Virus record (IMG/VR): IMGVR_UViG_3300043395_000934
Coordinates: 1-33,660 of that record
Length of the DNA: 33,660 nucleotides
Source: a virus
Strand: one strand, 5' to 3'
Part shown: one piece after another, positions 7,910 through 17,246 of the stretch
Layout: every line of letters begins with the position of its first letter
Numbering within the stretch: position 1 is the first letter of the stretch
The notes under the pieces: model-generated
Databases searched by the model: none
Seen by the model: only the letters and a program-made list of their open reading frames with translations
What the model was told of the DNA's origin: nothing
Program-made: the position numbers and the translations under genes

Positions 7910-8495
7910 AAAATTACACGGTGTTGACTACATCAACCGGGCAATGGCTATCCTGATAGATCAGGTGCAATTATTTTTTAATGTCAGCATGCCCATGTCA
8001 CCAGCTCAAATTGGTATTACATGCGATTTGATATTGGAACGTTTTGGTAATTACAAATTACAGGACTTTCAAATCTGCTTTCGTAAAGCAATGGCAGGTG
8101 ATTATGGAAAGTTATACAACAGGATTGATGGCGCGATTATAATTGAATGGCTGAATCAATACGATGCAGAACGCACAGAGGAAATCATAAAGATGCGTGA
8201 ACGTGAACATGTCGAAACAAAGATGACAGCTGCGCAGATATTCGCAACGCCAGCAATGCAGCAGGTATTACAACAGGTTACTGATAAACTCAAAATAACA
8301 GACATGAATACATCGTACAAAGCAAATGATGCACCGCGTAAATTGAATCCATTAGAGCAACGCATTTTGGATGATTGGTCCGCATTGCCCAAATTACCGA
8401 TGTTTCAAATTGCGATGGCTAATGTCGAAGGTACAATAATGGATTTTACTGATTATAGAATTTTTAGAATTAACGAATACCTGAATGCCGAATGA
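7869..8495 (+). CDS. Conserved phage protein downstream of the initiator (DUF6633-like)
   Basis: The frame is open from ATG 7764, but the first 35 codons overlap the initiator gene and look non-native (K-K-K-N-H-I-H). I prefer GTG 7869, giving V-I-S-N-N-T-L-P-S-L and 208 residues; the start remains uncertain. The core holds M-S-P-A-Q-I, F-Q-I-C-F-R-K-A-M-A-G-D-Y-G-K-L-Y-N-R-I-D-G and I-I-I-E-W-L-N-Q-Y. This Y-G-x-L-Y-x-R-x-D-G signature is known from Bacteroidota phage proteins found beside replication genes. A helicase-loading or replication-accessory role is suggested by position only. Confidence 0.6.
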   Translation: MISNNTLPSLVTLKKLHGVDYINRAMAILIDQVQLFFNVSMPMSPAQIGITCDLILERFGNYKLQDFQICFRKAMAGDYGKLYNRIDGAIIIEWLNQYDAERTEEIIKMREREHVETKMTAAQIFATPAMQQVLQQVTDKLKITDMNTSYKANDAPRKLNPLEQRILDDWSALPKLPMFQIAMANVEGTIMDFTDYRIFRINEYLNAE

Positions 8496-8689: not shown

Positions 8690-8694
8690 CAAAT

Positions 8695-8755
8695 TTGCAC
8701 CCGATACGGTATGATATATCATTGATTAATTCAAATTGCACCCGATAAGGTATGA
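8695..8755 (+). repeat. Pair of 20-bp direct repeats
   Basis: TTGCACCCGATACGGTATGA at 8695-8714 recurs as TTGCACCCGATAAGGTATGA at 8736-8755, differing at one of 20 positions, with a 41-bp period (about four helical turns). The copies lie between the replication genes and the small-gene block, next to a palindrome. They may be regulator-binding sites or one edge of an inserted block. Confidence 0.6.
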
Positions 8756-8764
8756 CAAACCAAC

Positions 8765-8783
8765 TGTTCGGAATTTCCGAACA
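8765..8783. promoter_or_regulatory. 19-bp perfect palindrome, operator candidate
   Basis: TGTTCGGAATTTCCGAACA has 9-bp perfect arms around a single central T. It lies 18 bases before the ATG at 8802. There is no T-run after it, so an operator for a dimeric repressor (for example the XRE protein at 5476) is more likely than a terminator. Confidence 0.5.
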
Positions 8784-8801
8784 ACTCAAAACAATAACAA
8801 A

Positions 8802-9020
8802 ATGACAAAATCAATTTTCTTAGTAGGATTGCCACAAATGGCATCAAGAGAACAAATCGAAGAACTTCAAAAAAATTTAGAGCAAAAACTTGAACAATAC
8901 TATCCACTTGTTTATGTGACAAATTCAAGTGAAATAGATTTCAAGTGTTTTTTTGAAAAAGATTTCGATGAAGTAAAATTTGAGGAACTAAAACAGATTG
9001 TCCGTGATGCTGTCAAATAG
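8802..9020 (+). CDS. Small cassette-like hypothetical protein
   Basis: This 72-residue protein starts at ATG 8802, after the palindrome; an upstream alternative start would run through the repeats. It begins hydrophobic (I-F-L-V-G-L-P) and continues with a helical, Glu/Gln/Lys-rich stretch (E-E-L-Q-K-N-L-E-Q-K-L-E-Q-Y), then E-I-D-F-K-C-F-F-E. It resembles small orphan proteins of Bacteroidota genomes, but I cannot name a family. Codons favour AAA/GAA and lack the GCA/CGC-rich style of surrounding phage genes, suggesting recent acquisition. It is the first of three small genes in the cassette-like block. Confidence 0.55.
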   Translation: MTKSIFLVGLPQMASREQIEELQKNLEQKLEQYYPLVYVTNSSEIDFKCFFEKDFDEVKFEELKQIVRDAVK

Positions 9021-9053
9021 GCTTGCGGATAACGGAACGCAAATAAACGCAGT

Positions 9054-9260
9054 ATGAAAGCAACAGAAATATATTTGATACTATGCCAGATGGATGCTGG
9101 TGAGATAACACTTCAAGAAGCGCACGAACTCATATTGCGTTTATTTGATGTTATGGAATCGGATTGCGACCATGAATGGTTAGATAATTCGTATGACCAT
9201 TTCGGATTTTTAAAAGACCAAATTTGTGATAAGTGTGGAGCAAAGCAATCTGTTCCATAA
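9054..9260 (+). CDS. Small protein with possible zinc site
   Basis: This 68-residue protein starts at ATG 9054. The N-terminal half is helical (Y-L-I-L-C-Q-M-D-A-G-E-I-T-L-Q-E-A). The C-terminal half has C-D-H-E-W and then C-D-K-C-G-A-K, giving three Cys and two His that could hold one zinc ion. A short hairpin TTGCG/CGCAA with GATAACGGAA as its loop (9023-9042) precedes it, and the long imperfect palindrome begins at its stop. Function is unknown. Gene and flanks together look like a mobile cassette. Confidence 0.5.
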   Translation: MKATEIYLILCQMDAGEITLQEAHELILRLFDVMESDCDHEWLDNSYDHFGFLKDQICDKCGAKQSVP

Positions 9261-9387
9261 CGGCTGACGCTATACGAAGGTGGGGATAAAGATGCGCAAC
9301 CCTTGCTTACCGCACAAAAGCAAATTAGATGCACAACTGTACAGATTTGGCACACAGCCCCACTTTTGTATAGCGTATGTTATAGGC
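9255..9387. repeat. Large imperfect palindrome, attC-like
   Basis: The arms ACGCTATACGAAGGTGGGG (9267-9285) and CCCCACTTTTGTATAGCGT (9358-9376) pair at 17 of 19 positions around a 72-base spacer. Outside them lie CCATAAC (9255-9261) and GTTATAGG (9379-9386), also roughly complementary. An inverse TAAC core, an imperfect palindrome, and a GTTA core between two small same-strand genes is the plan of an integron cassette recombination site. The cores do not match the classical RYYYAAC/GTTRRRY consensus exactly. No integrase gene is present. No ORF is supported in 9261-9405. Confidence 0.45.
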
Positions 9388-9405
9388 TGATAATTTTTAC
9401 GGATT

Positions 9406-9606
9406 ATGGAAGATAAACAACCAGTTCAAGAAAGAAAAATGATTAACACGAAATCGCTAAGTGACCTTGCAATATACTTGTCGGGTGTAAAAGATGGTAA
9501 AGGTAATTTACTACCACTTGGCACAATAGTATTGGATGACCTATGGGATGCAGTAAAGTATTTGCAAGGTGATGTAAGGTTCATTTCGGAGAGGGATAGC
9601 AAGTAA
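9406..9606 (+). CDS. Small cassette-like hypothetical protein
   Basis: This 66-residue protein starts at ATG 9406. It contains S-L-S-D-L-A-I-Y-L-S-G-V-K-D-G-K-G-N-L-L-P and L-D-D-L-W-D-A-V-K-Y-L, so it is mostly helical. No family is recognised. It is bracketed by a perfect 12-bp inverted repeat, TATGTTATAGGC (9376-9387) and GCCTATAACATA (9616-9627), the same GTTATAGG core that ends the large palindrome upstream. This bracket, plus composition unlike adjacent phage genes, suggests a captured gene unit. Confidence 0.5.
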   Translation: MEDKQPVQERKMINTKSLSDLAIYLSGVKDGKGNLLPLGTIVLDDLWDAVKYLQGDVRFISERDSK

Positions 9607-9615
9607 AATTTATTT

Positions 9616-9627
9616 GCCTATAACATA
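9616..9627. repeat. Right inverted copy of the 12-bp core
   Basis: GCCTATAACATA is the exact reverse complement of 9376-9387. It lies ten bases after the stop of the small gene at 9606. No second palindrome arm follows before the next gene, so if this was once an attC-like site it is truncated. Confidence 0.5.
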
Positions 9628-9661
9628 GGAATAAGCGAAATAAATAAAACGAAACATACGG

Positions 9662-9668
9662 AGGTGAC
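9662..9668 (+). promoter_or_regulatory. Strong Shine-Dalgarno sequence
   Basis: GGAGGTG lies just upstream of ATG 9671. Almost no other gene in the window has such a site, as expected for Bacteroidota, whose ribosomes rarely use one. Its presence here fixes the start of the next gene and is atypical for this genome. Confidence 0.55.
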
Positions 9669-9670
9669 AA

Positions 9671-9925
9671 ATGAATAAACGCATACCAATAAATAAAGCA
9701 ACACTGTTAGATTATGGTTTTCGCGCATCAGAAACAGACCGTGTATATTGGTTTGATATAATTGGTTTTGAATTTGGATTTACACCGCGTGCAGTAGTCA
9801 GGCACAAAGAAGAAGGTGGTACATTATTTTCATTGTATAAATATGTGAAATACATGGATGAATTGAACCAATTATATTTTTTTAGAACAGGTAAAAATTT
9901 ACCAAATTATACAGAAACAGAATGA
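9671..9925 (+). CDS. Conserved hypothetical phage protein
   Basis: This 84-residue protein has its start set by a strong ribosome-binding site. It begins N-K-A-T-L-L-D-Y-G-F and ends with Y-V-K-Y-M-D-E-L-N-Q-L-Y-F-F-R-T-G-K-N-L. This recalls a widespread small family in Bacteroidota phages and mobile elements with a terminal H/K-x-L-Q-N-L-Y-x-x-L-T-G motif. The function is unknown. It follows the cassette-like block and overlaps the next gene by four bases (ATGA), joining the early operon that runs to the terminase. Confidence 0.6.
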   Translation: MNKRIPINKATLLDYGFRASETDRVYWFDIIGFEFGFTPRAVVRHKEEGGTLFSLYKYVKYMDELNQLYFFRTGKNLPNYTETE

Positions 9926-10152: not shown

Positions 10153-10412
10153 GCGAAGAAACAGAACAGGAAATCGCAATGGATAAACAGCCATCGCCCA
10201 TTGATCTATTGCATGGTATTTACAGGAATAAAATAAACAACAATCCGAAGTCACTTGCATCAAGTATGTATCAACAGGTGATTGATGTGTGCATTCACTT
10301 GAAGCAGTTAGAAGATGAATGGATCAAATACCATTACAGCAAAGGATACGTAGATGGCATCGAAGATTTCAAGGCAGAACTAAATAAAACCAACGAAGAT
10401 GACGCAGCATGA
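10149..10412 (+). CDS. Hypothetical acidic protein
   Basis: This 87-residue protein starts at ATG 10149, overlapping the previous stop (ATGA). It is helical and acidic, with Y-Q-Q-V-I-D-V-C-I-H-L-K-Q-L-E-D-E-W-I and Y-S-K-G-Y-V-D-G-I-E-D-F-K. A G-Y-x-D-G motif near the end recurs in small phage proteins, but I know no function. It overlaps the next gene by 14 bases. Confidence 0.5.
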   Translation: MSEETEQEIAMDKQPSPIDLLHGIYRNKINNNPKSLASSMYQQVIDVCIHLKQLEDEWIKYHYSKGYVDGIEDFKAELNKTNEDDAA

Positions 10413-13377: not shown

Positions 13378-13414
13378 CCAAGTCAAACAAACACAAACAC
13401 AAAAAACAAAAGCC

Positions 13415-13597
13415 ATGACAAACACAGTAAACTTTGAAACCATCAACAGCGAAATCGTAGCATTGATCAATGATGAAAATTTTCGTAACACATGCGCACA
13501 AACTGCAAAGCAAATTGGAATCACTGCGCAGGAATGGAATGAAAACAAAGTAAACATCCTTTACATGTGGGCATCACAGGTAGTTTGTAATAAATAA
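13415..13597 (+). CDS. Hypothetical small protein
   Basis: This 60-residue protein starts at ATG 13415, right after an A-rich leader. Extension upstream to 13346 would run through the promoter and is rejected. It is helical, with E-I-V-A-L-I-N-D-E-N-F-R and G-I-T-A-Q-E-W-N-E-N-K, and has no recognised domain. It is the first gene after the terminase terminator, under its own host-type promoter, so it is probably expressed early. It could be a small regulator or a host-takeover protein, without sequence evidence for either. Confidence 0.6.
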   Translation: MTNTVNFETINSEIVALINDENFRNTCAQTAKQIGITAQEWNENKVNILYMWASQVVCNK

Positions 13598-13609
13598 TTT
13601 TAAGCAGGG

Positions 13610-13628
13610 GCGCGACTGCACAACGCGC
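13610..13628 (+). promoter_or_regulatory. GC-rich hairpin before a small gene
   Basis: GCGCG (13610-13614) and CGCGC (13624-13628) form a stem around a 9-base loop in otherwise AT-rich spacer DNA. It lies seven bases before ATG 13636 and could modulate translation. No T-run follows, so it is not a typical terminator. Confidence 0.3.
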
Positions 13629-13635
13629 ATTTCAT

Positions 13636-13896
13636 ATGAGCAAAGAACAAACAGCAGTACAATTTTTAATAGAACAAATTGAATTAGCATTGAAATTGAA
13701 TAAAGTAGATATTGAATTTATGTACCGCATTAAAACAATAAATCCTATTTATTCAATAGCACTTGAAAAGGAAAAAAAACAAATTGTGGAAGCATTTATA
13801 TCAAGCCGAAAAGACAAAATTATTTTACCCGGATGTGAATTAGAATGTGCCAATGAATACTTTGAAGATACATATAACAAAATAAAAAATTTATAG
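13636..13896 (+). CDS. Conserved hypothetical phage protein
   Basis: This 86-residue protein starts at ATG 13636. The pattern K-E-Q-T-A-V-Q-F-L-I-E-Q-I, then A-L-E-K-E-K-K-Q-I-V-E-A-F, then A-N-E-Y-F-E-D-T-Y-N matches a frequent small protein of Bacteroidota phages and their hosts (E-Q-T-A-x-x-W/F-L, E-K-x-Q-I, Y-Y/F-x-x-T-F/Y). No biochemical role is known to me. Its composition is richer in A and T than adjacent genes. It is followed after two bases by a tiny hydrophobic ORF. Confidence 0.6.
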   Translation: MSKEQTAVQFLIEQIELALKLNKVDIEFMYRIKTINPIYSIALEKEKKQIVEAFISSRKDKIILPGCELECANEYFEDTYNKIKNL

Positions 13897-13898
13897 AC

Positions 13899-13973
13899 AT
13901 GAAACAATCAACACCAGACACAACAGACATCATTATCCTAATCATTTTTATCATTATCCTATGTTCAAACTAA
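13899..13973 (+). CDS. Candidate 24-aa membrane microprotein
   Basis: This ORF reads M-K-Q-S-T-P-D-T-T-D and then an almost pure Ile/Leu/Phe helix (I-I-I-L-I-I-F-I-I-I-L) ending C-S-N. It starts two bases after the previous stop and overlaps the next gene by 13 bases, so it fits the tight gene packing. A single membrane span with a short polar N-terminus is clear. The A/T-rich repeats could produce this by chance. Confidence 0.35.
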   Translation: MKQSTPDTTDIIILIIFIIILCSN

Positions 13974-16067: not shown

Positions 16068-16115
16068 GCCTGCAATCGCCATCAACACTTTGGCAAATTT
16101 TAATTTGCTTTTTTA

Positions 16116-16144
16116 TTGATCAGTAGGAATTTATTTTATATTTG
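16116..16144 (+). promoter_or_regulatory. Well-formed orphan plus-strand promoter
   Basis: TTG at 16116-16118, an 18-base spacer, and TATATTTG at 16137-16144 form one of the best Bacteroidota promoter matches in the window. No plus-strand gene follows. Transcription would meet the terminator at 16165-16204 after about 55 nt. Confidence 0.55.
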
Positions 16145-16150
16145 ACATAT

Positions 16151-16205
16151 CATTACGTTATTTTAAAAGGGAGTTATGTCCGGCAAAGACGCTCCCTTTT
16201 TTTTA
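16151..16205 (+). ncRNA. Candidate short RNA ending at the terminator
   Basis: Predicted from the promoter at 16116-16144 and the hairpin with T-run at 16165-16204; the start near 16151 is estimated. The product would consist of a short AU-rich 5' end and the terminator hairpin, with no ORF. It could be an antisense or regulatory RNA, or only abortive transcription. There is no evidence beyond the two signals. Confidence 0.3.
16165..16204. terminator. Bidirectional terminator between converging operons
   Basis: AAAAGGGAG (16165-16173) pairs perfectly with CTCCCTTTT (16192-16200), with a T-run on the plus strand and TTTTAAAATAA on the minus strand. Inside the loop GTC/GAC adds a short inner stem. 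It separates the plus-strand recombination operon from the minus-strand late operon, whose last gene ends at 16203. Confidence 0.8.
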
Positions 16206-17246
16206 TCTAATTTTTCCGTTCACAATACGTTTGTTATACACTTCAAAATCACCATTGCGATCTGTGATGATATGCGCGAATCCGTGATGGTGTTTATTTA
16301 ATGGCATGTAATCAGGATGAAGTTCACACAGGCAAGCCACTGACCAACATGTCACCACTTTGCCATTGATGTTTGGTTCACTATGTTCTGATGCCTGATG
16401 ATGATGCCCACAGATTGCACTGTCCTTTGCACGTAGGAATAATCCGCGTGCTATGTTCACAGGACTGAACACGCTGGTCATCATTTCATGTCCATGTAAC
16501 GCAGTCAATTTACCGATATGCGTTATCTGCAATGATGGTATGTATTGTATGTTGTACTTCGCCAAATGCAGTAGCGATTCCAAATTGAATTCATCCATCC
16601 CTAATAGATCAGGTGCATTGCGCATTATGTACTGCTCATACCGGGCATCGTGATTGCCACACTTGTAATAGATGGCAGCGTTTGGAAATACGTTGCGTAA
16701 TGCTTTCAGGAAATCACGTGTGAGCATTACCTCATGCGCGAAATCACGTTTGCGCGGATCCTTTTCAAATCTGCTGATTGCGTAAAAATCAATGATGTCA
16801 CCGTTCAAATAGATGGTGTTCACGTTATTCGCCACACCATATTTTAACGCCAGTGTGAGTGCAGGTATGTTGTGATATGGTATGTGTATATCATTCAGGA
16901 ATAATATATTGTTGTGGCTAACAGGTAGCTTGTATGCTTTGTAATCCTTTTCGAGTGATGCAGGAATACCAAACGGATTCAATTCCGGATTGATGTCGTT
17001 AGCCATGAATGCGAAATCAGTTACTACATCATCAGCTGATTGCACTGCATCATGTATTCCATCTTTGATTCGCTGTGCAGGTCCATAAGTATCATGCTTC
17101 CATTTTTTATACAACCGATAAAACGCATCCAACGTGATGCTGTAATTGTGTTCGTTCAATATAGCTGCGCACAATTGCCTACGTGGTGTGCGTGATGCAT
17201 CCGCGTAGATAGCATAAAAGTGATGGATGTATTTACTTCTGCTCAT
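16203..17246 (-). CDS. Calcineurin-like metallophosphoesterase with N-terminal HTH
   Basis: This 347-residue protein has all five metallophosphoesterase motifs: D119-x-H121 (L-N-D-I-H), G-D150 (L-N-G-D-I-I-D), G-N-H-D (197-200), a G-H-E near 255, and G-H-H-H near 280. Two metals would be bound. Residues 1-50 look like a small helical DNA-binding or HTH region (S-I-T-L-D-A-F-Y-R-L-Y-K-K-W-K). It is the last gene of the late operon and overlaps the endolysin by four bases (ATGA). The substrate is unknown: nucleic acid ends, nucleotides or a phosphoprotein. Late expression argues against a replication role. Confidence 0.8.
   Translation of the reverse strand: MSRSKYIHHFYAIYADASRTPRRQLCAAILNEHNYSITLDAFYRLYKKWKHDTYGPAQRIKDGIHDAVQSADDVVTDFAFMANDINPELNPFGIPASLEKDYKAYKLPVSHNNILFLNDIHIPYHNIPALTLALKYGVANNVNTIYLNGDIIDFYAISRFEKDPRKRDFAHEVMLTRDFLKALRNVFPNAAIYYKCGNHDARYEQYIMRNAPDLLGMDEFNLESLLHLAKYNIQYIPSLQITHIGKLTALHGHEMMTSVFSPVNIARGLFLRAKDSAICGHHHQASEHSEPNINGKVVTCWSVACLCELHPDYMPLNKHHHGFAHIITDRNGDFEVYNKRIVNGKIR

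Follow-up and report, generated by a model that had tools for sequence, protein, structure and literature searches.

Two small genes in the window, the 33,660-nt stretch of DNA analyzed here that constitutes the complete IMG/VR record IMGVR_UViG_3300043395_000934, probably are integron-like cassettes moved by a XerA-like phage recombinase (estimated probability ~0.8 on comparative sequence data). These two cassettes, which comprise genes 2 and 3 of a cluster of three, belong to a widespread and apparently undescribed integron-like system of phages. The window is an orphan array inside a small-gene hotspot. It is devoid of an attI-like site and, as an earlier note had stated, no tyrosine recombinase is encoded anywhere in the 33,660-nt record. 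Scanning the window for Rfam families and tRNAs gave no hits.

The three small plus-strand genes reported previously are present (Table 1), and their proteins gave no family match. The genes had been described as AT-rich, which is correct, but the bias is modest with GC contents of 30, 36, and 37% for genes 1, 2, and 3, respectively, compared to 40% for the window. The nearest relatives of the phage (L061, L062, and L063) possess terminases that are 98-99% identical at the protein level and ~90% identical at the DNA level. The comparison with related phages that had been recommended revealed that these close relatives are without the genes at the hotspot, which instead spans 143-555 nt with other small ORFs. 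The left end of the hotspot is partly kept in L061.

Table 1. Features of the hotspot and the cassette array in the window.
Feature	Position	Strand	Description
Variable small-gene hotspot	8692..9915	.	Between conserved phage genes 8492-8689 and 9922-10152
Palindrome TGTTCGGAATTTCCGAACA, 19 bp	8768..8786	.	Before a different gene in L061; absent from L062 and L063
Gene 1, 72 aa	8802..9020	+	Without family; stop 10 nt before TAAC core
attC-like element 1	9030..9153	+	TAACGGAACG-stem...stem-ATGTTATGG; 18-bp stem overlapping start of gene 2
Gene 2, 68 aa	9054..9260	+	Stop TAA is part of next TAAC core (9258)
attC-like element 2 (T type)	9258..9382	+	TAACGGCTGACGCTATACG...TATAGCGTATGTTATAGG
Gene 3, 66 aa	9406..9606	+	Without family
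Cassette 3 3′ end box (array end)	9603..9624	+	...TTTGCCTA-TAAC; core at 9621

The palindromes associated with the three genes are dissimilar. The 19-bp palindrome noted before gene 1 exists, but the copy that precedes another gene in L061 shows that it is phage-native and outside any cassette. Beside it is a pair of 30-nt direct repeats (8692-8762; TTGCACCCGATAAGGTATGA) with no other copy in the window. The pair, which L061 retains and L062 and L063 lack, belongs to the phage lineage and perhaps is an operator or regulatory site. No hairpin was found upstream of gene 1, the gene has no relatives among the loci collected, and its status as a cassette is unclear. The small hairpin described before gene 2 is real, but makes up the 5′ portion of a longer element (9030-9153), the outer ends of which pair with the 3′ end of gene 2 at 6.5 of 8 positions versus 2 of 8 with the left neighbor. 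The 133-bp imperfect palindrome recognized before gene 3 (9255-9387) has 19-nt arms that are 89% complementary, and a fold z of ~-2 on either strand. The end box of cassette 3 forms a 25-nt inverted repeat with 9376-9400, and the ends of this cassette pair with each other at 6.5 of 8 positions versus 3.5 of 8 with the neighbor. The TAAC and GTTA ends that had been discerned also are present.

The search for further copies of the element that the earlier note advocated yielded many; with these copies and with the genes missing from the close relatives, neither condition that the note had named as arguing against a mobile cassette applies. A 17-base signature matched 42 viral stretches, nearly all of which carry either the entire palindrome or the first half of it, located between genes that differ and always in the same orientation relative to those genes. 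The same signature had four matches in a genome collection, one of which is unrelated. Near-identical copies of element 2 (9258-9382) occur in dozens of viral contigs, and dozens of unrelated IMG/VR contigs contain hairpins of the same grammar. The TAAC of many copies is at the upstream stop codon or within ~20 nt of it. By blastn, a 166-nt element produced no match with phage isolates and plasmids. Gene 3 has copies in seven loci, which are 97-100% identical in L049, L051-L053, and L163 and more distant in L054 and L055, and all homologues diverge past the terminal TAAC. Relatives of gene 2 in three loci (L056, L057, and L058) possess common sequence up to the TAAC and different sequence thereafter; the leader from TAAC onward also is common with gene 2 in L056 and L057. 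Gene 3 heads an array in L163 in which short hairpins follow the genes and a tyrosine recombinase is located at the end. In L040, twelve elements are distributed between small genes, followed by the recombinase. Two near-identical elements in L040 (2205-2332 and 2596-2723) have tRNA-like pieces (GGTTCGATTCC, GGGTTCGACTCCC) in the loop and no clear gene.

A recombinase search with six enzymes identified 94 viral contigs, 80 of which were kept; most of these contigs are fragmentary, and the viral assignment of a few may be wrong. Elements were located with a custom detector (TAAC, 3-6 nt, stem, 0-3 nt, GTTA) that accepts gapless stems only and misses bulged stems. In the recombinase loci, 291 elements were detected 5′ of the gene on the recombinase strand, one on the 3′ side, and four on the reverse strand (0.91, 0.002, and 0.005/kb, respectively), compared to two elements in 1.52 Mb of control phage loci with both strands counted (0.0013/kb). 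Of the 56 loci with ≥1.5 kb of sequence 5′ of the recombinase, 54 had an element. The occurrence of two elements within 360 nt in the window is not due to chance because only two were detected in the 1.52-Mb control. With two elements, as found with this detector, and no tyrosine recombinase in the record, the array may be a CALIN (a cluster of at least two attC sites that lacks an integrase). A conserved AT-rich site (consensus TAACTATNATATATA) is located directly 5′ of the recombinase gene in 76 of 77 loci and may function as an attI-like site.

The recombinase possesses the invariant catalytic residues. Its best family is the XerA-like NCBIfam NF040815 (196 bits, under the cut-off of 220), versus 162 bits for integron integrase family TIGR02249 (cut-off 265). 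The integron integrase search matches every control genome because of XerC/D, and was used only in conjunction with the cut-off and alignment. The closest solved structures are XerC/XerA-like. Alignment showed that the IntI-specific insertion is absent in the phage enzymes and host relatives. Identity with classical IntI was rejected as this insertion is missing, and the matching recombinase is XerA-like and carried by other phages. In a tree in which several reference branches are long, 47 distinct phage recombinases formed one group apart from two IntI proteins. A terminase (PHROG 2) was recognized on 19 of 46 recombinase records, and no recombinase with >60% identity was found among phage isolates. 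Known XerA-like recombinases resolve chromosome dimers. Unlike the known NF040815 members, the phage enzymes are one clade tied to cassette arrays.

The extent of the units was established from alignments of otherwise unrelated contigs. Complete TAAC-to-TAAC units in common were found as 13 pairs, nine of which are distinct, including those of window genes 2 and 3 and a 550-nt unit that is 100% identical in L036 and L233. No GTTA-to-GTTA units were found in the same contig alignments. There is no core at either end of 135 of 245 shared stretches; stretches that end elsewhere are expected from divergence, an expectation rather than a proof. The start of the gene is located within the hairpin in 85 of 236 cassettes, and therefore the hairpin must travel with the downstream gene. 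The unit boundaries and the genes starting inside the hairpin refute the possibility that the hairpin is the 3′ site of the upstream gene, and the polarity of a classical cassette, gene then attC, is reversed: the hairpin moves with the gene 3′ of it. The eight bases after the GTTA of a unit and the eight before its own terminal TAAC were complementary at 6.10 of 8 positions (n = 239), compared to 3.62 of 8 with the array neighbor and 3.66 for shuffled sequences (p ~1e-34, with duplicates removed and related sequences treated as partly independent). This complementarity would be expected if a site is built from the unit's own ends in an excised circle, and is hard to explain by RNA or terminator function.

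A set of 215 distinct elements conforms to TAACG...TGTTA with an inner stem, and these elements possess the palindrome, AAC/GTT cores, and inner stem by which a classical attC site is recognized. Stem mismatches on the coding strand comprised 300 G.T and 62 A.C pairs when scoring was alike for both strands. The coding strand of the classical cassette aadA1, which was the control, reads TAACA...CGTTA and has the opposite polarity. Thus, the coding strand of the phage units is the equivalent of the attC bottom strand, the one that is recombinogenic (PMC9892861). The att geometry therefore appears orthodox with the gene reversed. The arrays resemble classical integrons in their tandem short genes, imperfect palindromic sites, AAC/GTT cores, single crossover core, putative attI-like site adjoining a tyrosine recombinase, and unit ends that jointly would form a site. 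Unlike classical integrons, they are phage-borne with a recombinase that lacks the IntI insertion, and the hairpin is first in TAAC-to-TAAC units, whereas in the classical cassette the gene precedes attC and the crossover is at G↓TT. Compared to classical attC sites, the phage elements have R-L spacers of ~5 and 1-3 nt, and no gaps are present in the stems as detected. The IntI insertion is held to be essential for attC binding, though it is not fully conserved (PMC8138268), and its absence from the phage enzyme counts against the cassette reading. Reverse-orientation integrases occur in Spirochaetota (PMC9668308).

The unit proposed on these grounds would be bounded by two successive TAA↓C cores, with the hairpin site followed by a short gene whose stop codon coincides with the second core or slightly precedes it. 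The coding strand, as single-stranded DNA, would fold into an attC-like hairpin, and the small XerA-like tyrosine recombinase would cut at TAA↓C and release the unit as a circle. With the crossover at TAA↓C, the hairpin would move with the downstream gene. In the circle, both ends of the same unit would jointly form a site, and the circle would re-insert at another such site or at the AT-rich attI-like site beside the recombinase gene. When viewed from the attI side, the units would be classical cassettes with the gene reversed, reading toward the recombinase. The window contains two cassettes and no recombinase; therefore, the enzyme would have acted in trans or the cassettes would have arrived with the DNA of a recombinase-bearing phage, with the direction of transfer inferred. 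Capture of cassettes by the phage at a small-gene hotspot, as initially suggested, is consistent with the shared units, exact junctions, and own-end complementarity, but clear cassette status is limited to genes 2 and 3.

Longer relatives of the recombinase are encoded by Bacteroidota chromosomes and one Chryseobacterium plasmid. Eight of 18 host loci include one or two elements with the same grammar, all on the strand opposite to the enzyme and on its 3′ side in seven of the eight. In addition, IntI1 can recombine attC sites of phages, among them one of Polaribacter phage P12002L (PMC9892861). The genome of this phage harbors same-grammar elements that share a strand with its genes and that may or may not be the sites tested with IntI1. 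These observations would fit ordinary attC cassettes from host chromosomal integrons that are moved by host integrases only, with the phage recombinase uninvolved. This scenario is improbable as the phage elements are almost exclusively 5′ of the phage recombinase, the phage genes are oriented oppositely to the host copies, and matches to the strict signature are much more frequent in viral contigs (42) than in genomes (4).

Base pairing is better on the coding strand than on the opposite strand, as anticipated if the palindromes are RNA features such as leaders, terminators, or processing hairpins, and repeats of this type could also support homologous exchange by which the genes are reshuffled. 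Nevertheless, this combination of RNA function and homologous recombination is very unlikely: the pairing of the outer boxes spans the whole gene and not a junction that is usable by RNA, one fixed tetranucleotide ends the units, and the elements are tied to the recombinase gene. Still less credible is the insertion of MITE-like transposons between phage genes. Although near-identical copies with terminal inverted repeats are found in many contigs, 129 elements were counted by the detector on the gene-orientation strand and none on the other in 39 signature loci, the gene is included in complete mobile units, and one grammar is maintained across stems of very different sequence.

The occurrence of attC sites and CALINs in phages already is published (Qi et al., 2023; PMC9892861). 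The present arrays are akin to those integrase-less attC-type sites in virulent phages, whose cassettes include DNA methyltransferases and one example of which is from a Bacteroidota phage. A dedicated phage recombinase at the array end, the reversed unit, and the shared family all were unreported in that study. No description of a phage cassette platform was found in the literature searched, with subscription papers and preprints outside its scope. Capture of the resistance gene aph(3′)-IVb in Riemerella is homology-free and features a 140-bp attC-like stem-loop region for which the recombinase was not identified (PMC13148043); the stem-loop is 3′ of the gene, unlike in the phage units. The Riemerella capture may be linked to the Bacteroidota host recombinases, and a candidate enzyme is offered for the homology-free cassette transfer reported in Bacteroidota.

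Among 100 cassette proteins, ~5 are DNA methyltransferases and others are an RNA ligase, an exonuclease, and an HNH nuclease; most are without any match. Viruses seem to own a gene-shuffling platform. The odds are about even for the broader proposal of a phage-specific, non-classical platform in which one XerA-like clade that lacks the IntI insertion would act on folded single-stranded sites and move unknown genes and those for anti-restriction among phages both small and very large, alongside a sister system that resides on chromosomes and plasmids of Bacteroidota and may account for the homology-free capture there. If the cassette reading is correct, phages would own a gene-capture platform and the origin of their many small accessory genes would become directly testable. 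The question also arises whether the IntI-specific insertion truly is required for recombining folded attC-like sites.

Several minor observations were made. A second variable small-gene site is located at 13400-13900 of the window, where relatives L059-L064 have differing small ORFs. A short GC-rich hairpin (GGGGCGCGACTGCACAACGCGCAT type) is present between the small ORFs, and an attC-like element is absent from this site. A segment of ~106 nt in the window (16104-16209) is missing from L061, L062, and L064. The cassette-recombinase module of L163 is located at a phage gene's 3′ end and is bracketed by a direct repeat (8014-8084 and 10341-10411). This 46-71 nt repeat suggested that the module had been inserted as a single piece, but the suggestion was not relied upon: the flanking repeat is absent in L007, L003, L040, L169, and part of L026. 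Among the host loci, L285, L282, L274, and L288 are Bacteroidota chromosomes and a plasmid that possess a XerA-like recombinase with same-grammar elements on the opposite strand, and possibly represent a class of host integrons whose enzyme is not IntI. A related XerA-like recombinase adjoins the resistance gene on Tet(X3) and Erm(F) plasmids (L259 and L289).
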